Both the position numbers and the translations under genes were made by a program. Below, in pieces: positions 18,782 through 63,418 of a DNA stretch of 64,000 nt. The first letter of the stretch is position 1; the number at the start of each line of letters is the position of its first letter. The notes under the pieces are model-generated. The model saw only the letters and a program-made list of their open reading frames with translations, had not been told where the DNA came from and did not search any database. This stretch comes from a virus, in IMG/VR virus record IMGVR_UViG_3300043256_000135, positions 1 through 64,000 of that record; one strand, written 5' to 3'.

Positions 18782-19344
18782 CTGATGTTGGCTCCAATCC
18801 ATTCGCGCACGGCTGCATCCAGTACAGTATACCTCGCCATATGGGAAACAGCGTATACTCCCCATCCATTTTTCACGCCTTCGTGTGCTACTTGAACGAT
18901 GACGCCGACCAGCTCACCGTGATCGTTTACAACCGCGCCGCCACTACAGCCATAAATCACTGGGGCGCTCATCCAACCAGACTGCTGTGCCTGGTACCCT
19001 TCGGTCTTTAGTAGGGCATCGCCCTGATGCCAACTATAGGTGTACACTCGCTCGAACACTTGGGGCATCTCTGCGGCGGGCCGCAGGCCGTACGCCTTTG
19101 CTTCAGCGCAGGGGACCAGGGCCAAGTCCGTGTCGGGGTGGGGGATTGCTTCACCGCATGGCATCCCATCGGCCGTGATTATCGGCAGCATGTGCTTCGC
19201 AGTCAGGATCCACCCGTCCACGATAACCACACCCGAGCCTGTTTCGCCGTTGGGGCCCTTCAGTAGTAGGACATTTGGATAGTTCCAAGTTGTTGAACAG
19301 GCAGGCAGGAGCAGAACAGCAGCTAGGGCAGCACACTTCAGCAT
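18778..19344 (-). CDS. Predicted lipoprotein, trypsin-like serine protease
   Basis: 188 aa. Signal MLKCAALAAVLLLPAC ends in a lipobox with Cys 16. The mature part is a chymotrypsin-fold protease: GSGVVIVDGWILTAKHML (His 51), DTDLALV (Asp 73) and YGCSGGAVVND (Ser 134), with all three catalytic residues present. It would sit on the outside of the inner membrane or in the outer membrane, cutting an envelope or external target. It lies between the primase-helicase and a small gene, coupled by TGATG. Confidence 0.85.
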   Translation of the reverse strand: MLKCAALAAVLLLPACSTTWNYPNVLLLKGPNGETGSGVVIVDGWILTAKHMLPIITADGMPCGEAIPHPDTDLALVPCAEAKAYGLRPAAEMPQVFERVYTYSWHQGDALLKTEGYQAQQSGWMSAPVIYGCSGGAVVNDHGELVGVIVQVAHEGVKNGWGVYAVSHMARYTVLDAAVREWIGANIR

Positions 19345-21767
19345 CAGAAAGCCTCACCGCCATCGTCAGGCGGTTCGTTGGGTCCAGCGTCTTGGTTGTC
19401 ATCGCCGACAGGTGGCCATGCTCGGGGGCCGGACTTCGTCACGGTCTCCCACAGCTTACGGCATTCATCCAGCGAGGGGAAGACCCATACTTTTGGGCGC
19501 CCGGACGACTGGCGGCGCTGCCCGCGGGGGTCTACCCAGCCCTGAACGCTCCTCCCTGTCGTCGTAGACACCCCGAAGCGGGACAGGAAGATACCTAGAG
19601 GTCGATTCGGGTTTGTCTTGAAACTTGGGTATTCTACCTTGAATCGCTCCACCAGTTCCTCCTTCAGAATCTGCGTCCTCCAGCCCGCATGGCTGGGCAG
19701 CAGTCGGCCCTCTTCCAGAGCATTCAGCAGGAAGGATTGCATCTCGCTCATGCTCTGGTCCTGCTGCTTTCGCAGCTCGATGGTCTTTGGGCATTTCCAC
19801 ACGTCGAACTCACTCAGGTCGTAAGTGAGCAGAAAGTGCATCAGGGCCTCGTACCCACCATTATCCATCTGGGCGTGCAGCGCAGTGAAGTAGGCGATGT
19901 CCGTCTGGTAGCGGTCGTCGATTTCAACCACAAAGAACCGGCGGTCGTCCAGGTCGGCGCTAATGGCCCACTCCCGGTTCGTCGCCATGATCAGGTGGAC
20001 ACAGTTCCGCGACTCCATGTTGTCGACACCCTTCTGCTCAGTGCGCAGGGTCTCCTCGGTAATCAGAGACTTCAGGGCGGATTCGGCGCTCTCGTCGTGT
20101 GCAACGAAACATTCGTCCGCGAATACCAGCACGGAGTCTTTCAGCATCGCGTTGAACTGGCCAGTGACATGCTTCGGGTTGGACACGTACTTGTAGTGGC
20201 CACCGAACAGCTTGCCGAACATTTTGGCGAACGTGCCCTTGCCCGTGCCCTGGCCGCCGCGCATAACGATGGCGACCTGCCCAGGGTTCTCGGGATGCTG
20301 CACGGCATTGGCCATCCACTGCACCACGTAGATGTAGTACTCTTCGTTCCCCCGGCACACCACGTTCTTCACGTGGTCCAGGAACAGGGAGCAGTCGCCC
20401 GGCAGGGCGTTCACGGCGAAGCCGCGCCACAGGTTCATACAGTCGGAGAACTCACGGTTGGGGTAGAACACCACGCTGCGGTAGGTGCGCCGGTGTGTAT
20501 GTTGGAGCCACCATTTGCCGACGGGGATCTCTTTGGGGACGGGGTTGCCTTTCTTATCGGGCCACATCTCCACCACGGTCTGGTTGCTGTACATCGTCGT
20601 GAAACCGTCGCGTTGATGGAACTCGATCTCTGACCGGCCAATGGCTTCGTTGTAGCGTTCGCATGCGATTCGCATCTTACCGCCCACCGATTCGATCAGG
20701 GCGTACTGCCGGTTCAGCAACTCCAGCCACGGCTCGATCGAGTCCTCGCGTGCCCGCTGAATCGTGCGCAGGGCGCAGCGGTGCACATTGGCGGCGTTAC
20801 CCTGGGCCAGTACGTGGGCGCTGATGCCTAGGTCGGGGTCGGTGATGATGCTGTAGATGGTGTCGTCATCGAAGTTGTTGCGTACCAGCTCGCACGCCAC
20901 GAACCAGAGCCAGTCGCTCCGACTGTTGCCGGCGGTCAAAGGCTGGTCGGGATCATGCCCTTGCACGATAGCGACGCGGGCGCGCGGCGATACGCTCTTG
21001 AAGATGCCGTTCTCGTCGCTGAAGGCGTCCGCGGGCACGCGCTGGCAATTGCCGGAGACGTTTACCTGCACCTGATTTTTGCTTCCCACGCGCGTCCCGG
21101 TTGCGAGGTCGGGGGCCTTCATGAAGTACTCGGGGTTGTCGGCGTCGTACGTGGTGTCCCAGTTGGCCAGGATCACGTCGGCCATGATGGGGGTCTGGCC
21201 GTTCTTTCGTTTTGAGGCGTTGGGGAAATTGCACGTCCCCACAAGACGCATAACGTGATCGGCGCTATGGCACGCATCCGCTTGGAGCAACTTGGCGATC
21301 TGGACGTTGTACCGCTCGGCGTCTTCGACCTTCAACAGCTCCCCGCCCAGCTCGATCGGGCAGGCCAATTTCCAGAACGCTTGATACCCGCCGCCGCTGA
21401 AGGTGATCACGGTCGGCTTGGGAACAAGGTCGGTGGTCTGGAGCAGGTTCAGAATGCGCTTCTGCTCCTGAAGAAGGGGCAACCCCTTCTTCGGGTCGAC
21501 ATCGACATGCAGCCACTCCATCCTCAAAACGTCCCCCTTGCTGGCCTTACCGCAGCCTGGACGAACAGGGTTGGGGTGGAAGTAGATGTTGCGCTCCGCG
21601 GCCTGCTGGCGCACGATCCACGCGGCCATCTCCTCAACCGTGTCCGGGCCGAACGTACCGAAGTCGTTGGTCTTATCTTCGTGGAACGCACACAGCGCCC
21701 ACGGACCATCAGGCTTCCACCGCTTCAAGAAGTCGGCGGCCAGGGCGGTGTCGGGGGCGATCATCAT
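19344..21767 (-). CDS. Primase-helicase (DUF5906-type), leaderless-type start
   Basis: 807 aa. The N-terminal third has WLHVDVDP and ITFSGGGYQAFWKL, the RepB/AEP-like primase pattern. The C-terminal third is an SF3/D5-like AAA+ helicase: RGGQGTGKGTFAKMFG (Walker A near residue 505), LVFADECFVAHD (Walker B) and LIMATNREWAI (sensor). The domain order matches phage NrS-1-type bifunctional primase-helicases. ATG at 21767 is 4 bases below TATACT (a second ATG at 21764 is 7 below). Works with PolA and SSB. Confidence 0.88.
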   Translation of the reverse strand: MMIAPDTALAADFLKRWKPDGPWALCAFHEDKTNDFGTFGPDTVEEMAAWIVRQQAAERNIYFHPNPVRPGCGKASKGDVLRMEWLHVDVDPKKGLPLLQEQKRILNLLQTTDLVPKPTVITFSGGGYQAFWKLACPIELGGELLKVEDAERYNVQIAKLLQADACHSADHVMRLVGTCNFPNASKRKNGQTPIMADVILANWDTTYDADNPEYFMKAPDLATGTRVGSKNQVQVNVSGNCQRVPADAFSDENGIFKSVSPRARVAIVQGHDPDQPLTAGNSRSDWLWFVACELVRNNFDDDTIYSIITDPDLGISAHVLAQGNAANVHRCALRTIQRAREDSIEPWLELLNRQYALIESVGGKMRIACERYNEAIGRSEIEFHQRDGFTTMYSNQTVVEMWPDKKGNPVPKEIPVGKWWLQHTHRRTYRSVVFYPNREFSDCMNLWRGFAVNALPGDCSLFLDHVKNVVCRGNEEYYIYVVQWMANAVQHPENPGQVAIVMRGGQGTGKGTFAKMFGKLFGGHYKYVSNPKHVTGQFNAMLKDSVLVFADECFVAHDESAESALKSLITEETLRTEQKGVDNMESRNCVHLIMATNREWAISADLDDRRFFVVEIDDRYQTDIAYFTALHAQMDNGGYEALMHFLLTYDLSEFDVWKCPKTIELRKQQDQSMSEMQSFLLNALEEGRLLPSHAGWRTQILKEELVERFKVEYPSFKTNPNRPLGIFLSRFGVSTTTGRSVQGWVDPRGQRRQSSGRPKVWVFPSLDECRKLWETVTKSGPRAWPPVGDDNQDAGPNEPPDDGGEAF

Positions 21768-21795: not shown

Positions 21796-22209
21796 CTAGG
21801 TTTCCAGGAAGGGCCGGAGTTCACGGAAAGTTGGGGTGCGGACCCACAGGCAGATGGCAGCCTCGTACAGCTCTTGCCGTGTGCCACCTTCCTTGCCTCC
21901 CAGGATTGCAACGGCGGCCAGCCCCTCGAACAGCAGCCACTCGCTTGCGATGTTGAGCATCACAAACGCGCGTCCGTTTACACGCGCCCACAGGATGAGC
22001 CAGATTCGCTGGCCCTTCGTCAGGGGGTGGTCCAGCTGCACCGGGGTATCCACCCGGGCGGGCCATTCCTCGGTAGCCTTGCATTCGATCCACCCGTCGC
22101 GGTAGGCGATGTCCGGTGTGCCCGGGTGGCACCCACCGTTCTCTACGGCGAAGGCGCCCAGGGGGCGTAGGATCTTCACCAGCTGTTGCCTCATGTCGCG
22201 CTCAAGCAT
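21796..22209 (-). CDS. VRR-NUC family nuclease
   Basis: 137 aa. GGCHPGTPDIAYRDGWIECKA is the PD-(D/E)xK core of VRR-NUC proteins (Asp in PDIAY, ExK in IECKA). Such small phage VRR-NUC enzymes are thought to act on branched DNA during replication and recombination. Its start overlaps the previous gene by 8 bases, and its end is just above the primase-helicase promoter. Confidence 0.85.
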   Translation of the reverse strand: MLERDMRQQLVKILRPLGAFAVENGGCHPGTPDIAYRDGWIECKATEEWPARVDTPVQLDHPLTKGQRIWLILWARVNGRAFVMLNIASEWLLFEGLAAVAILGGKEGGTRQELYEAAICLWVRTPTFRELRPFLET

Positions 22210-30060: not shown

Positions 30061-30134
30061 TGGGGTGCTGCCGGGAATCGAACCCTGGTCTTCCGCGCCA
30101 CAGGCGGACGTTCTACCACTGAACTAGCAGCACC
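30061..30134 (-). tRNA. tRNA-His (anticodon GTG)
   Basis: Cloverleaf on the minus strand. Anticodon stem TCCGC/GCGGA frames the loop CTGTGGC with anticodon GTG. Read with G at -1 paired to C73, as bacterial tRNA-His requires, the acceptor is GTGCTGC/GCAGCAC, T8 and A9 are in place, and CCA is encoded (30063-30061). The T-arm is odd: with that register its stem needs a bulged A in CAGGG/CCCG. The whole acceptor can alternatively pair as GGTGCTG/CAGCACC with one T-stem mismatch. Confidence 0.88.
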
Positions 30135-31350: not shown

Positions 31351-31953
31351 TTAGGCGCCCGGCCGTTCAGCGCCATGGTCTCTAAGTATAGCACTCTCGG
31401 CGAGGATTGCACGTAGTTTTTCTTCCCCCGAGTTTTGAATCTGACGAACACGCTCTGGGGTGACAGCGAGAATGTCGCCTACCTGTCGCAGCGTCATAGG
31501 CAGAGTGTTTACACCTCTGCGCATGCGGATCACCATCGCCTCGCGACTTGGCAACAGCTTGATGCCGTCGCGCACGGCATCAACCATCTCAGCTTCATCC
31601 AGTACTTCCGACACGTCGGGCGCCGAGTCCGCGAGGTCGTAGGCGGTCTCCAGCGAACCACAGATGAGGGAAGGCCGCCGCCGCGGCGTTCGCACGATCT
31701 CATTCCTGGTGTGAATGGCGTCCATGATTATCTTCAAGATGTGCCAGCGGGCGTAGGTCGAAAACTTCGTGCCTCGCGCAGGGTCATACAGCTCGGCCGC
31801 GTCTATCAAACCGAGGTAGGCTTCCTGCACCAGATCCTTGTATTCCATTCGACTGGCCTGGAAATGATTGGCGAAGTGCGTCGCAAGACCCATGTTGGCA
31901 AGTACGAGTTCATTGCGCTTCTTCTGTAGGGGGGTCAGCTTTCTCTTTTTCAT
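31351..31953 (-). CDS. Phage sigma-70 family factor
   Basis: 200 aa. Region 2 is clear: MEYKDLVQEAYLGLIDAAEL, then YDPARGTKFSTYARWHILKI with the aromatic melting residues. Region 4 is MTLRQVGDILAVTPERVRQI, a helix-turn-helix like sigma region 4.2. Region 1.1 is absent and region 3 short, as in group 3 factors. It would redirect RNA polymerase to phage promoters; the recurrent TGTGGTAKACT element is the obvious candidate. The start lies 44 bases inside the upstream gene. Confidence 0.9.
   Translation of the reverse strand: MKKRKLTPLQKKRNELVLANMGLATHFANHFQASRMEYKDLVQEAYLGLIDAAELYDPARGTKFSTYARWHILKIIMDAIHTRNEIVRTPRRRPSLICGSLETAYDLADSAPDVSEVLDEAEMVDAVRDGIKLLPSREAMVIRMRRGVNTLPMTLRQVGDILAVTPERVRQIQNSGEEKLRAILAESAILRDHGAERPGA
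31385..31390 (-). promoter_or_regulatory. Promoter for the 295-aa gene, leadered
   Basis: Minus strand AGTGCTATACT inside the 3' end of the sigma gene; a leader of about 60 bases with TGGAGAC precedes ATG 31317. Confidence 0.5.
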
Positions 31954-32931: not shown

Positions 32932-33183
32932 TCATCCACCCATTGCCGACAGTCCACAGCCGGGACACCCATCGGTGCCCGGGACGCCCCATCCTCCACA
33001 CTCGCACGGCCCCGTTGGCCGCCATGGATACCGCGCCTTCTTGACATCGGCCGCCTGATCCACCAGCATCTCGCACAGCACCCGCAGCGCACTCACCTGG
33101 GAGCCGTACTTGGCGGTCTTGAGGCCGGCGATCTTTGCCCGATAGTAGCCATCGGGCGTCCTGATGATCTTGGGGAGGGTCAC
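32932..33183 (-). CDS. Unknown 83-aa protein with zinc-ribbon tail
   Basis: The N-terminal half is a basic strand-helix unit (YYRAKIAGLKTAKYGSQVSA); the C-terminus is PCECGGWGVPGTDGCPGCG, a compact zinc ribbon. GTG start overlaps the upstream stop. Confidence 0.55.
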   Translation of the reverse strand: MTLPKIIRTPDGYYRAKIAGLKTAKYGSQVSALRVLCEMLVDQAADVKKARYPWRPTGPCECGGWGVPGTDGCPGCGLSAMGG

Positions 33184-34187: not shown

Positions 34188-35672
34188 CTATACCCACTCC
34201 CGGATGGAATCGCCCAAAATCAGAGCTGCTAGATCCACCTTGTCCCGCAGGGCCCGTAAGATGGTCCGGTCAAGAGTCCCGCGTGCGATAATATCTATGT
34301 AGAGCACAGACTTGTCCTGCCCGATGCGGTGGGCGCGGTCTTCGCTCTGGAGCCGGTCGGAGAGCCGGAAACTGTTGTTGTAGTACACGACCGTCTTTCC
34401 CATATGCAAAGTCAAACCTTCACCAGCGGCTGCTGGGTTAGCCACGAAGAACTGCGCGGTACCATCCTTGAACGCGGCGCGGCGCACCTCGCGGTCGTCT
34501 TGGGAGGTCCGGCCGTCGTAGACGACACAAGTCTTTCCCTTCGCGAGCAGTGCGGCCTCGATCAGGTCGATGTCCTTTTGGAACTTCGCAAAAATGATGG
34601 CTTGGTGGGGGATGTCTTCGATCGTATCCATCAGGCACAGCAGTCGCGGGTTCGGCATGATCTCGATCATGTCGCCGCCGTCCGTTGGCAAGTACCCGGA
34701 GGCAATCTGCTGGAGCCTCAGTAGCCTAGTTATTGCAAGAGCGGCCGTGACCATGTCGTCATCTGCCAACCAAATTACAAACTCCCTTTTGAGTTCTTCG
34801 TAGAGCCGCTTCTGCTCTGGGCTCATGTCGAACGTGCGCTTCTCGTACAGCTTCGGCGGCAAATCGAGCACGTCCTCTTTCAGTAGGCGATCACCCATCT
34901 TGTCCACGATCGCGTGCAGAGACGCAAGGTTCTGGTACCCGGTCAGCGTCTGAAACCGTTGACCGTTATCGTTGCGGACGTACTCCTCGAATACCCCATA
35001 CAGTGCTTTGAACGCGGGGAAGCTGCCGCAGCCCATGCGCTTCCAGACGTCCTCATCCAGAAACATCAGCTGCGAATAGAGATCAAAGGGTCCCTGCGTG
35101 ATTGGGGTCCCCGTCAGGATGCGGCGATAGGGGGCATACTTGCTTGCGGCCAACACGCGCTTGGTGCGCTTCGCCGAGGGCGTCTTGATTCTTGCGCTTT
35201 CATCGAGAACAAACATGCACCGGCGATCGGTCAGCAGGAACTTGGAAGCCTCTTTTCCCTTCATCAGGCCACGCTTCGCACCCTTCGTACGAGAAGTCAT
35301 AATTGAGTCGTACGACATTATCAGGACTGCCAACATGCTCGGGGGCGTCGACAGGAATTCCTTCAGTTCCTTCTGGAAGCCGATGGTTTTCGCTTTGCTG
35401 GTATTCCACAGGAACACCTGCACGCGCTTCGGGTCCACGCCGAAGTGCAGCGGCAATTCATCAAAGACCCAGTTGGGCGCGACCGCCTTGGGAGCCAGCA
35501 CCAGCGCACCGTTGATTTCGCCCGACTCGTACAGGTGACCAATGATATCGATGGTGGGCTTCGTCTTCCCCGTCCCCTGTTCCCAGAAGATCGCACGAGC
35601 CCGCAGGTCGCGGGTGCGCTCATACAGCTCGGCCTGATGTTCGAACGAAGTCGTCTTTTGGGTGTAGGTCAT
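34188..35672 (-). CDS. Snf2-like SF2 helicase
   Basis: 494 aa: AIFWEQGTGKTKPTIDI (motif I), CMFVLDESARIKTPSAKRTK (II), RILTGTPITQGPFDLYSQL (III), QAIIFAKFQKDIDLI, and QSEDRAHRIGQDKSVLYIDI (VI) are the ordered Snf2-family motifs. Such phage proteins remodel DNA-bound complexes or help replication restart. The ATG at 35672 has no ribosome-binding site and follows a leader with two strong hairpins. Confidence 0.9.
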   Translation of the reverse strand: MTYTQKTTSFEHQAELYERTRDLRARAIFWEQGTGKTKPTIDIIGHLYESGEINGALVLAPKAVAPNWVFDELPLHFGVDPKRVQVFLWNTSKAKTIGFQKELKEFLSTPPSMLAVLIMSYDSIMTSRTKGAKRGLMKGKEASKFLLTDRRCMFVLDESARIKTPSAKRTKRVLAASKYAPYRRILTGTPITQGPFDLYSQLMFLDEDVWKRMGCGSFPAFKALYGVFEEYVRNDNGQRFQTLTGYQNLASLHAIVDKMGDRLLKEDVLDLPPKLYEKRTFDMSPEQKRLYEELKREFVIWLADDDMVTAALAITRLLRLQQIASGYLPTDGGDMIEIMPNPRLLCLMDTIEDIPHQAIIFAKFQKDIDLIEAALLAKGKTCVVYDGRTSQDDREVRRAAFKDGTAQFFVANPAAAGEGLTLHMGKTVVYYNNSFRLSDRLQSEDRAHRIGQDKSVLYIDIIARGTLDRTILRALRDKVDLAALILGDSIREWV

Positions 35673-35690
35673 GGGGTGCGGGAATAATGT

Positions 35691-35748
35691 GCCGGCCCCG
35701 GGAGAGAACACTCTCCCGGACCGGCGTTGCCAGCTACGGGTTGGCAAC
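35691..35748 (-). promoter_or_regulatory. Double-hairpin 5' leader of the Snf2-like gene
   Basis: Hairpin one: GCCGG and CCGGGAGAG pair with CTCTCCCGG and CCGGC (35691-35725, 4-nt loop AACA in the plus strand). Hairpin two: GTTGCCA/TGGCAAC (35726-35748, 9-nt loop). Both lie between the promoter at 35782 and the ATG, with no U-run, so they look regulatory and not terminating. Confidence 0.65.
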
Positions 35749-35781
35749 AGAGCAACCAAACGGAGGATTCTTCACCACACC

Positions 35782-35792
35782 ATTCTACCACA
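35782..35792 (-). promoter_or_regulatory. Promoter of the Snf2-like gene, leadered
   Basis: Minus strand ATGTGTGGTAGAAT; -10 at 35782-35787; AAGTTTTCTCGACC at the -35 distance. A leader of about 105 bases follows. Confidence 0.6.
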
Positions 35793-36195
35793 CATGGAGC
35801 CCGGAGGTCGAGAAAACTTCGGCGCTGATGCCCACGGGGGATGGTGTACACGGGTGTACACCATTGCACCGCTGCACTGGTGTACACCAAAACACCCAAT
35901 TAGAGCCCACTGGTGGGCGAGTACACGATGTACACCGTTGTACACTATCTCTAGAGAGGGTACAGGGAAAGTACAGAAAGGACGTGTAGAACGCACGTTT
36001 CCCGGGCAACCCGCAATCCACCCGTGTACATGGTGTACACCCGTGCCACCCTTATCCCACAAGGACTTACGACGCCACTATTGCAGCCATGCAATAGTGG
36101 CACCCGTGTACAGATAGGGCTGGATGTTTCCCGATCGGGAACTTTTGGGCCGGATCGGCCACACGGCGGCCGATCCTTCCCGGACGGGAAAGCCC
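35793..36195. other. Noncoding control region with GTGTACAC array and inverted repeats
   Basis: About 400 bases without a credible gene. GTGTACAC occurs exactly at 35844, 35854, 35880 and 36033 and with one change at 35928, 35938, 36024 and 36106. Inverted repeats: CCACTATTGCA/TGCAATAGTGG (36075-36100), TTCCCGATCGGGAA (36128-36141), GGATCGGCC/GGCCGATCC (36152-36176) and TTCCCG/CGGGAA (36177-36190). It lies where transcription diverges, so it may be an origin, operator array or both. Confidence 0.75.
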
Positions 36196-36480
36196 TCAGA
36201 CTTCTGGGGTGCCTAGGAGCCCCGCTACGGCCTTCACCAATAGAAGGGCCACTGGGACCATCAGGCCATAGAAGAGCCGCCTCACGCCAGCCGCGGCCTG
36301 TTCCAGGCGATCCAGGCGGACATTGTGTCCCTTGATCCCATTGCCATCGCCGACTAGGATCGATTGGACCTTTTTTGCCCGGGCGTCCAAGGTGTCGATC
36401 TTCTCGTCCAGGCCCTTCAGGACGACCAGGGTCTCGGCCTGAGTCACCTCGATTTCGCGCAGTCTTTCGTCGATTTCCAC
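36196..36480 (-). CDS. XhlA-like coiled-coil membrane protein, GTG leaderless-type start
   Basis: 94 aa. Heptad helix (IDERLREIEVTQAETLVVLK), a GDGNGIKGHNVRLDRLE link, and one C-terminal membrane helix (LFYGLMVPVALLLVKAVAGL). This order resembles XhlA-type hemolysin/holin accessory proteins. GTG at 36480 is 5 bases below TATACT. It is one half of the divergent promoter pair. Confidence 0.6.
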   Translation of the reverse strand: MEIDERLREIEVTQAETLVVLKGLDEKIDTLDARAKKVQSILVGDGNGIKGHNVRLDRLEQAAAGVRRLFYGLMVPVALLLVKAVAGLLGTPEV

Positions 36481-36513: not shown

Positions 36514-36645
36514 ATGAAGAACAATTTCACGCTGTTTGCCAAGATGGGGGTCCTAACCATCGGGGTTATTGTCCTGAACATAGTTGCTCTGCTGGCGGTG
36601 GTTGCTGGCGCCCTGTGGCTGCTCCAGGAATTCGGTGTACTGTGA
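36514..36645 (+). CDS. 43-aa single-span membrane protein, leaderless-type start
   Basis: Begins MKNNFTLFAKMGVLTIGVIV, a single hydrophobic helix, and ends LLQEFGVL. First gene of the plus-strand island. No ribosome-binding site; TATACT is 5 bases upstream. Stop overlaps the next GTG as GTGA. Confidence 0.6.
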   Translation: MKNNFTLFAKMGVLTIGVIVLNIVALLAVVAGALWLLQEFGVL

Positions 36646-36860
36646 AAACCATAGATGCAATTTGTCAGCGCGTCATACGTGAGTGCCAGAAGATAGAGGC
36701 AATGGCAACAGGGCGCGATACCTTCTGGATCCAGAGCCAACACAACGGTGCAGAAATCCAAGTCTGCGACATTGTGGCGAAGCGCGCCCTGTCCCAGGAT
36801 CGCCAGAAAGAGCTGGTGAACTGGTGGCTGGAAAACGTGACGTCGCTTCTACTTCCCTAG
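36642..36860 (+). CDS. Unknown 72-aa plus-strand protein
   Basis: Starts with GTG (VKTIDAICQRVIRECQKIEA), overlapping the previous stop. Helical with a Trp pair (VNWWLENV). Probably translated by coupling. No family recognised. Confidence 0.55.
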   Translation: MKTIDAICQRVIRECQKIEAMATGRDTFWIQSQHNGAEIQVCDIVAKRALSQDRQKELVNWWLENVTSLLLP

Positions 36861-36869
36861 GCGCTGAAC

Positions 36870-37034
36870 ATGTGGACTACACATATATTCGACCTAGGAA
36901 GATGGGTGTCCATACGTACTGGAAAGCACCAACAGCCATGGACCTACGGTAGCCGAGAAGCGGCCTTAGAGGCCATCAACGACTACAGAAAGAAGTGGCC
37001 GATGGTACACCTACGGCTGCGAATCACACACTGA
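36870..37034 (+). CDS. Unknown 54-aa plus-strand protein
   Basis: Begins MWTTHIFDLGRWVSIRTGKH and contains SREAALEAINDYRKKW, a helix often seen in small phage proteins. No clear ribosome-binding site; starts 9 bases after the previous stop. Confidence 0.5.
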   Translation: MWTTHIFDLGRWVSIRTGKHQQPWTYGSREAALEAINDYRKKWPMVHLRLRITH

Positions 37035-37041
37035 GGACAGC

Positions 37042-37383
37042 ATGAATCACCACGACTTCCGATCCACCCCGGACCTTAGCTGGATAGACTCATTGTTCGC
37101 CTGCCCGGGTCGGCTTGAGCTGTTTGGTCCGGACGATTGCCCCATACCCGGCAGCCAGCGGCTGTTGAAACCGATCGACCCCACCGGGTATGAGGCAGAC
37201 CATGCAATTAGTTGTGGAGCGCGCTATGAAGCCTTCTACCCCAAGAATAGATGCGGACGCCGGACCCCAATCTCACATTACCGGGTTACTGGTGGGGACA
37301 TGGAGGATGGATTGCAGGCATTCTTGCAAGAATTCGTAAAGACCGATCGTGATACTCTGATGGTCTACATCCCACAGCCCTAG
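37042..37383 (+). CDS. Unknown 113-aa plus-strand protein
   Basis: Begins MNHHDFRSTPDLSWIDSLFA with scattered Cys (ACPGRL, DDCPIPG, SCGARY, RCGRR). GAGGACAG ribosome-binding site 1-2 bases upstream of a usual distance. Its last 4 bases overlap the end of the convergent tail-tip gene, so no terminator separates them. Confidence 0.6.
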   Translation: MNHHDFRSTPDLSWIDSLFACPGRLELFGPDDCPIPGSQRLLKPIDPTGYEADHAISCGARYEAFYPKNRCGRRTPISHYRVTGGDMEDGLQAFLQEFVKTDRDTLMVYIPQP

Positions 37384-53844: not shown

Positions 53845-54840
53845 TCAGTTGACGATCGTGATGTAGAACTGACCGAGGTCGGCCGAGACCAGCTTCTGGT
53901 CGAAGGCCATCTGGATCTCGATCATGTCGGACTCACGCTTCTCGTCGCGGATGCGCTTCACGCGCATGCCGAGAGCACCGGCGCCCAAGAGGCCGGTCCA
54001 AGAGAAGGTGTATCCGGCGCTCGGGACGTAGAGCCCGGGGCTCGGCGCGGAGTAGACCAGCAGAGCGGACTTGCCGCCGATGAGGTCGATGCTGTCCGCA
54101 GCACCTTCAGTTGCCGAGTTGACGACCGAGTCCATGACCAGAACCTCTTCCAGCTCGAAGAGGGCGGCCAAGTTCTGGCGCATGACGATGGCGGGGCCAT
54201 TCGTCTGTCCACGGTCCAAGCGCCCGACGATGTCGGGGTGATCCAACAGAGCGTCGTAAACCTCGCGGCCCACGACCATCTTGTTGGGCCTGAAGCCCGT
54301 GCGTGCCTGCACCCGACGCTTACCGGCGCGAACGTCCTCAATCGGGGTCGAGTCCGCGCGGTCCCAGCGGCCTACCTCATTGGTAGACGGGGACGCGGAG
54401 TCAACACCGGTCTGGTCGGTCGTCCAGAGGCCGCTTCCGAAGAAGTCGGTGACCCACTGGAGTTCCTTCCGGATCATGCCCGCCTGAGACAGCCCTTCGG
54501 TCATCTCGCGGTCGGCCTGGAGCGGGGAATCGTAGTTCGCCCGGACCTGATCGGCCAGCATCTCGTGCAGTGCCCACACATCGCAGGCGTAGCTGTCCGT
54601 GCTTACCTCGTGGGTGCGCTGAGCGGACAGGGCGCCGGGGGCGCGCTTTTTCATCTCGTCACGGAACCAAGCTCCGCGAGGGATGGTGAAGTACTTGTCA
54701 GTCTGCTTTGCGACGGACAAGACAGGGAAGACCCGATCAGCGATGAATGCCTCGGGGTTCTGAGCGAACGCGATTGCGATCGTGGTCAGTGGCCGATCGA
54801 CATGAACGTCACCGCGACCCGGCTGGTTGATAGGTGCCAT
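53845..54840 (-). CDS. Major capsid protein, HK97 fold (phage E type)
   Basis: 331 aa: RVFPVLSVAKQTDKYFTIPR, GAWFRDEMKKRAPGALSAQ, THEVSTDSYACDVWALHEML and TGFRPNKMVVGREVYDALLD are the usual landmarks of this capsid family. It is preceded by a decoration-type gene and the protease/scaffold gene. Start ATG at 54840 with AAGGAAAC upstream. Confidence 0.92.
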   Translation of the reverse strand: MAPINQPGRGDVHVDRPLTTIAIAFAQNPEAFIADRVFPVLSVAKQTDKYFTIPRGAWFRDEMKKRAPGALSAQRTHEVSTDSYACDVWALHEMLADQVRANYDSPLQADREMTEGLSQAGMIRKELQWVTDFFGSGLWTTDQTGVDSASPSTNEVGRWDRADSTPIEDVRAGKRRVQARTGFRPNKMVVGREVYDALLDHPDIVGRLDRGQTNGPAIVMRQNLAALFELEEVLVMDSVVNSATEGAADSIDLIGGKSALLVYSAPSPGLYVPSAGYTFSWTGLLGAGALGMRVKRIRDEKRESDMIEIQMAFDQKLVSADLGQFYITIVN

Positions 54841-62393: not shown

Positions 62394-62906
62394 CTACTGA
62401 AGTTCAGGTGGAATTGGAGTCAGAATGAACGAATGGGACTCACTTGTTGAATCGAAGGGATCGTCCGTATCGTTATGAACTATCGGCGAGACGTAGCGGA
62501 ACGGGATCCTCACCTTCCCTGAGATCTTCATCTCGTTCCCTACGCCCGTCGAATACACCAACGCTCCATCCAACCACAAACAGTTTCGCAATTGGTCTGC
62601 CGTCATCACGCCTTCAGCTGTCGTCGTCGGATCGGTCGTTGGCTTGCCGTCAAAGCCTGTCGTGGTGTTGCTGAACGACAAGTAGGCTAGAATCCCCTGA
62701 CCGATTACGGGCACTGTGTCGAAACTGTCGATGAACAACTCGTACATGTAGAACTCGGAGCGCGGAGCGACACCGAGATCATGGAACGAGCCCATCACCA
62801 CGCCGTCAGCAGCCAGCCCACCGAGGTCCAGGAGTTCATCTCCGCCAGTGGCGGCATCGGTCCACGTCCGCGATGCCTCGGGATTGACGTAGAGCTTGTT
62901 GACCAT
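62394..62906 (-). CDS. Virion appendage protein, paralog 1 of a tandem pair
   Basis: 170 aa beginning MVNKLYVNPEASRTWTDAAT and ending HSFILTPIPPELQ. Its neighbour has the same length, the same ends, and shared blocks (TTDPTTTAEG, LAADxVVMGSF, AYLSFSNTTTGFDGK). Beta-rich. A function in an appendage next to the LamG protein is likely from position. Confidence 0.68.
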   Translation of the reverse strand: MVNKLYVNPEASRTWTDAATGGDELLDLGGLAADGVVMGSFHDLGVAPRSEFYMYELFIDSFDTVPVIGQGILAYLSFSNTTTGFDGKPTTDPTTTAEGVMTADQLRNCLWLDGALVYSTGVGNEMKISGKVRIPFRYVSPIVHNDTDDPFDSTSESHSFILTPIPPELQ

Positions 62907-63418
62907 TACTGGAGTTCAGGCGGGATCGGTGTCAACACGACCTTATGCGCATCCGATGTAGACAATAGAGCGTCGGCTGTGTTGTTATGAAGTACTGGCG
63001 CTACATACCGGTGCGGGATATGAATGATCCCCGAAACTTTGAGTTCATTGGCTGCAGTCGTCGAGTAGACACTAGCGGCATCCACCAGCTTGACATTTCG
63101 CAATTGATCTGTCGTCATCGTGCCTTCCGCAGTCGTCGTCGGATCCGTAGTAGGGTTGCCGTCGAAGTTCGTCGTAGCATTACTGAATGACAGATAAAAC
63201 AGCACCGACTCACCGACTACTGGTGCGGTATCGAACCCGTCGATAGTCACCTCATACATGTAGTCTGCGGGCTGCGCTCCAGCACCACGATCGAGGAACG
63301 AACCCATGACCACGGCGTCTGCGGCCAACCCGCCTGCATCCATGAGTTCGGCACCGCCAGTAGTCGCGTCAGACCAATCAATCGCGGTCTCGGGATTGAT
63401 GTAGAGTTTGTTGACCAT
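62906..63418 (-). CDS. Virion appendage protein, paralog 2 of a tandem pair
   Basis: 170 aa beginning MVNKLYINPETAIDWSDATT and ending HKVVLTPIPPELQ, clearly related to the next gene down by eye over its full length. Start and stop overlap at both ends (62906 and 63418). The pair is a tandem duplication that has diverged mostly in the middle. Confidence 0.68.
   Translation of the reverse strand: MVNKLYINPETAIDWSDATTGGAELMDAGGLAADAVVMGSFLDRGAGAQPADYMYEVTIDGFDTAPVVGESVLFYLSFSNATTNFDGNPTTDPTTTAEGTMTTDQLRNVKLVDAASVYSTTAANELKVSGIIHIPHRYVAPVLHNNTADALLSTSDAHKVVLTPIPPELQ

Follow-up and report, generated by a model that had tools for sequence, protein, structure and literature searches.

Paired genome-specific repeat arrays as candidate replication origins in a phage family with a PrimPol-SF3 primase-helicase

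Replication origins built on short repeats are the closest described counterparts of the locus reported here. Phage P4 has one primase-helicase, alpha, and two separate cis regions, ori and crr, that carry the same iteron, a plan like the one we propose. Phage SPP1 has two similarly organised origins, oriL and oriR, about 13 kb apart, each with repeats and an AT-rich unwinding element, and a model in which binding at the second origin makes forks stall, and so sets off concatemer replication, has been put forward (PMC6316719). The Rep proteins of SaPI elements are reported, in a passage citing Ubeda 2007, to recognise iterons by their C-terminal domain (PMC7581432).

We analysed a window of 64,000 nucleotides, that is, the whole stretch of DNA under study, which comprises bases 1-64000 of a 76,449-bp IMG/VR phage record (G000). 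A repeat array in this window is duplicated elsewhere in the record, and paired arrays recur at the same two places across a phage family. We suggest, with a probability of about 0.6, that they are paired iteron origins, one ahead of each gene block, bound by the phage's PrimPol-SF3 primase-helicase.

The array, its duplicate and its surroundings

An earlier note, made from the window alone, saw eight exact or near palindromes in 270 bp and proposed a candidate origin or master operator. The clustering is real and lies far beyond chance, but the count is nine: the GTGTACAC sites at 35844-36113 comprise four exact copies and five with one mismatch. They are arranged as singles, tandem pairs and one triplet, with spacing of 9-10 bp, and the array thus shows what characterises iteron origins, many repeats with a tandem core roughly in helical phase. 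The array and its neighbours are as follows.

34188-35672, minus strand: SNF2-type DNA helicase (phrog_62), first gene of the replication module and conserved landmark beside the array
35782-35811, minus strand: sigma-70-like promoter TCGACC-18-TAGAAT, a consensus match only, between the array and the helicase and reading towards the helicase
35840-36113, no strand: iteron array of nine GTGTACAC-type sites, extended consensus ATGGTGTACACCAT
35844-35861, no strand: tandem pair, both exact GTGTACAC (35844 and 35854), 10 bp spacing
35880-35887, no strand: lone exact GTGTACAC site
35919-35945, no strand: tandem triplet GAGTACAC-ATGTACAC-TTGTACAC, spacings 9 and 10 bp
35921-35980, no strand: core of this array and its easiest-melting 60 bp, a weak signal that ranks 21 in the genome
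36024-36040, no strand: tandem pair GTGTACAT-GTGTACAC, 9 bp spacing (exact at 36033)
36074-36101, no strand: hairpin within the gap, 12-bp perfect arms and 4-nt loop
36106-36113, no strand: lone site GTGTACAG
36127-36191, no strand: GC-rich palindromes without a T-run, adjoining the stop codon of 36196-36480
36196-36480, minus strand: small coiled-coil/membrane-protein-like gene, upstream in the helicase direction

The same word forms a second array at 73641-73938 of the record, close upstream of the small terminase gene (72916-73398); it was absent from the earlier note because it lies outside the window. Its eight TGTACA sites (73644-73935) fall within a 60-nt inverted repeat, and their spacings are mirror-like (23, 22, 60, 77, 59, 22, 23). 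With TGTACA in both arrays, 16 of the 34 such sites in the record are found in two intergenic gaps. The two arrays are near-antipodal, about half a genome apart.

Chance or low complexity has a negligible claim to explain these sites. When the whole record was shuffled 300 times with dinucleotides preserved, the richest 270 bp never exceeded four GTGTACAC-type sites, against nine in the real array, and the second array and the recurrence across the family also speak against an artefact. Outside both arrays no 270 bp of the record holds more than two such sites, and GTGTACAC clusters most strongly of all 256 8-bp palindromes in the record. The strongest local repeat signal of the record is a separate cluster of GTTCCAAGTTGG-like repeats at about 2101-2500, within a predicted gene. 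Also in the window are a tRNA-His gene (30062-30134, minus strand) and two adjacent paralogous genes (62394-62906 and 62906-63418, minus strand) that are 70% identical over a 300-bp stretch.

The pairing of origin and operator as hypotheses has held up, but the supports first offered for it have not. The stretch is indeed noncoding: gene calling left 35673-36195 free of genes, and annotated relatives likewise have an intergenic gap at this position. Transcription, however, does not diverge across the array, since both genes beside it are on the minus strand and plus-strand ORFs begin only at 36514. The small ORFs of that plus-strand stretch (36514-37383) are missing at this place in the nearest relative, the fragment G028 (identity 68% for the helicase and 76% for the primase), which has a homologue of the 36196-36480 gene in the same position. 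The hairpin exists, with arms one base pair longer than the 11 bp claimed, and the GC-rich palindromes said to occupy 65 bp are in place; we saw no counterpart of either in G028.

A DnaA-dependent origin at this gap is very improbable, as nothing points to it beyond the string CTTATCCCACAAG. This supposed near DnaA box differs from TTATNCACA by more than one mismatch, and 35700-36250 contains no match to TTATNCACA at <=1 mismatch. In the whole window such matches number 19 with 21 expected, which is the chance level. GC skew, proposed as a check on the origin, shows no switch at the gaps in any of the genomes compared, and this counts against replication starting there.

Paired arrays and melting across the phage family

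The helicase beside the array has relatives in Ab18, YuA/M6, Bordetella FP1, Pam3 and Rhizobium RHph_I65, and the records of FP1, Ab18 and YuA are assigned to the family Mesyanzhinovviridae. FP1 and Ab18 each have two long gaps, precisely those that precede the helicase and the terminase, and one motif per genome is carried by both gaps. Arrays occupy these same two places, ahead of the SNF2 helicase and ahead of the terminase, in YuA/M6, Ab18, FP1 and IMG/VR phages, for which 21 IMG/VR records were compared in full length. The window's phage conforms to this family pattern, with a genome-specific array upstream of its SNF2 helicase gene and the same word arrayed again ahead of its small terminase gene.

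The repeat words vary among genomes (AAGTTAAG, AAGGTAAG, AAGTCAAG, ACTYRAGT, AGTCGAGC, CTTAAG, and GTGTACAC in the window's phage), while within one genome a single word is common to both arrays. YuA/M6, Ab18 and FP1 therefore share the two gaps with the window's phage but differ from it in word (AAGTTAAG, ACTYRAGT and others). By k-mer content, the helicase-gap array was closest to the second array of its own genome in 12 of 15 genomes, or in 10 of 13 when G016 and G020, whose second gap was chosen by eye, are set aside. Exact copies of the word are almost confined to the two clusters (13 of 13 in FP1, 16 of 17 in G001). The same gap in G028 carries a related but different word, TAACACCAT/GTACACCGTTT, and its core CTGTACTT...TAGATAGTGTACA is similar to the window core at 35921-35980. 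A scan of IMG/VR for GTGTACANNNGTGTACAC returned 69 scattered contigs, and a pattern check for paired TGTACA sites found them in none of six related records. The more divergent relatives G003, G005, G014, G017 and G022 have repeat clusters elsewhere, some of them coding or low-complexity.

Array sequences also turn up widely in existing records. The FP1 core segment occurs at 121 places in 64 phage records, mostly without annotation. The 175-kb record of Escherichia phage ERS-1 (PP337211.1) contains a Pseudomonas-type array core twice at 54598-54667 and is possibly a chimeric assembly. Two contigs of one Anaerolinea MAG (L306 and L307) both carry the SNF2 helicase at equal identity, which is likely phage contamination of that MAG.

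The position of the second array next to the terminase genes, the near-antipodal placement of the two copies and the inverted repeat of the second copy here could indicate a role in packaging, recombination or partition, as a pac site, a recombination hot spot or a centromere-like site. We consider this quite improbable, as the terminase is a long way from the first array, related phages have been described as lytic and their genomes as circularly permuted (PMC11946847), and ParA/ParB-like and integrase families are absent among those listed for the scanned proteins.

Melting behaviour is more suggestive of origins in the relatives than in the window's phage itself. Using nearest-neighbour energies for 60-bp segments ranked over the whole genome, we found that for 13 of 18 genomes one of the two arrays holds the easiest-melting segment, and that in 11 of the 18 the arrays take ranks 1 and 2. 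Among 35 additional loci, 16 had their easiest segment in the helicase gap, against 2.1 expected, and repeats were almost always present in those 16. In M6, FP1 and the kin of both, the easiest segment combines tandem 9-bp iterons with a following (TAA)n, (AAG)n or (TCTA)n tract. The arrays of YuA/M6, Ab18 and FP1 have such strong AT-rich trinucleotide or tetranucleotide runs, whereas those of the window's phage lack them and are only moderately easy to melt, at ranks 21 (helicase gap) and 8 (second array). This moderate melting is the main weakness of the origin reading for the copy in the window.

The primase-helicase as proposed initiator

Seven protein families are common to all 19 array genomes, and all belong to replication or recombination: the primase-helicase, DNA polymerase, SNF2 helicase, a Dda-like helicase, Pam3 gp33-like and Pam3 gp34-like proteins, and a VRR-nuclease-like protein, whose fold is assigned from a reading of its sequence. 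Among these seven, the distances between repeat words track the primase-helicase best, with raw correlations of 0.72-0.79 and partial r of 0.47-0.60 when the other, non-primase families are controlled for. As the genomes are related, this co-divergence is an association rather than proof of binding, and tblastn may miss small, fast-evolving DNA-binding proteins. It is also not exclusive to the primase-helicase: a few non-universal families are similar, and FP1 gp14 scores as high or higher. The features proposed for initiation are as follows.

19344-21767, minus strand: PrimPol (AEP)-SF3 primase-helicase, 807 aa, proposed initiator and predicted repeat binder
19344-19805, minus strand: C-terminal winged helix and acidic tail, residues 655-807, least conserved domain and proposed repeat-binding part

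This protein carries an AEP domain and the core of an SF3 helicase (DUF5906), and its C-terminal domain is variable in alignments A1-A3. Its AlphaFold2 model has a mean pLDDT of 86.8, and VIA matched the model to the helicase region of NrS-1 (Z 25.7), the S-2L PrimPol (Z 20.4) and SaPI5 PriRep1 (Z 19.0). Modelled alone, the C-terminal domain adopts the topology alpha-beta-alpha-alpha-beta-beta, and its weak VIA matches (best Z 6.6) are to winged helices of RTP, PadR, Cdt1 and Orc1; we call it a winged helix on this topology and these matches, while Foldseek with the domain alone returned no match at E <= 0.001. Most of the primase-helicases have an acidic tail ending in -PF (here 19344-19370, minus strand), like the C-terminal peptide of bacterial SSB. 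In G002, repeats also lie directly upstream of the primase-helicase gene.

Other binders were considered and set aside. FP1 gp13 and gp14 co-diverge well with the repeats, but both are absent from the window's phage, G028 and G002. The 'repressor' FP1 gp23/Ab18 ORF21 has a same-place family here (21796-22209) that matches phrog_2165, and nuclease-like homology is reported for the corresponding gene of LK3 (PMC11946847). A phage sigma-70 family factor (phrog_351, 31351-31953, minus strand) has a 70% identical counterpart in G028 and is not among the families common to the array genomes.

Origins, operators and known systems

A different function for the same repeats would be as operators, to which a phage protein, perhaps the primase-helicase and perhaps an unrecognised small protein, binds to activate or shut down the early and late operons. 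The arrays stand ahead of exactly the phage's two operons, and in the window's phage the array and the helicase have a sigma-70-like promoter between them. Two promoters of 1000 MU stand in the YuA annotation, at 489-568 and 33014-33160, each inside an array, and a repeat contains their -35 hexamer, TTAGGT. These promoters, for which the record gives activity only, were reportedly identified in the host by promoter trapping. They support operators, but equally fit an origin with a promoter that is repressed by the initiator or helps opening. Several observations make operators, the main rival, the less likely reading. No transcription regulator is universal among the array genomes, where the shared families serve replication and recombination. 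The families listed for 57 early-module proteins, up to 25 per search, contain a sigma factor and none of the repressor-type HTH kind, although many of the small proteins are of unassigned kind. Additionally, an operator does not predict that the genome's easiest-melting segments lie in the arrays, and predicted gene promoters are often some 100-300 bp away from the array core.

We favour origins because of the two concerted arrays, the melting elements of the relatives and the co-divergence with the primase-helicase, although the 14 kb between the array and the proposed initiator gene count against this choice. Origin and operator roles may both hold. We suspect that the C-terminal winged helix of the primase-helicase recognises the genome-specific repeats. 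The protein would assemble on the tandem 9-10 bp core, melt the adjacent weak segment, and then load as helicase and prime synthesis. Once bound, it may repress promoters in or beside the array; alternatively, these promoters may assist opening of the origin. The second copy may serve as a late origin or, as suggested for SPP1, may block forks and thereby switch replication to concatemers.

A broader picture is tentative and, taken whole, falls short of an even chance. It holds that this lytic family uses two iteron origins that evolve in concert and contain host promoters. The winged helix of the PrimPol-SF3 protein would be re-targeted as the repeats drift, giving each lineage its own origin word, and the second origin would drive the switch to concatemers. 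If true, YuA, M6, Lydia and Ab18, some of which are studied for therapy, would gain a predicted origin pair and a predicted initiator. The family would also offer a natural series of matched initiator and iteron pairs in which to study how primase-helicase DNA specificity changes. We found no description of paired arrays in the part of the family literature that was searched.

Comparison with known systems places these arrays near several of them. The P4 alpha protein differs in having another primase domain, and its ori and crr are merely kilobases apart. SPP1 uses gp38, a separate loader and a DnaB-type helicase, whereas a single fused PrimPol-SF3 protein is proposed here, and both array copies here, unlike those of SPP1, lie in intergenic gaps. 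Our array is not classed with oriL/oriR, and the likeness is drawn from the description of SPP1. The SaPI Rep-ori systems resemble the window's phage in combining element-specific short repeats with a primase-helicase of matching fold, as the match of its SF3 core to SaPI5 PriRep1 indicates. The SaPI ori lies directly downstream of rep, however, whereas the arrays here are far from the gene, occur in two copies and belong to a lytic-type phage. With 14 kb between array and gene, we do not class the array as a member of the SaPI group, and suggest that it may work like a SaPI ori.
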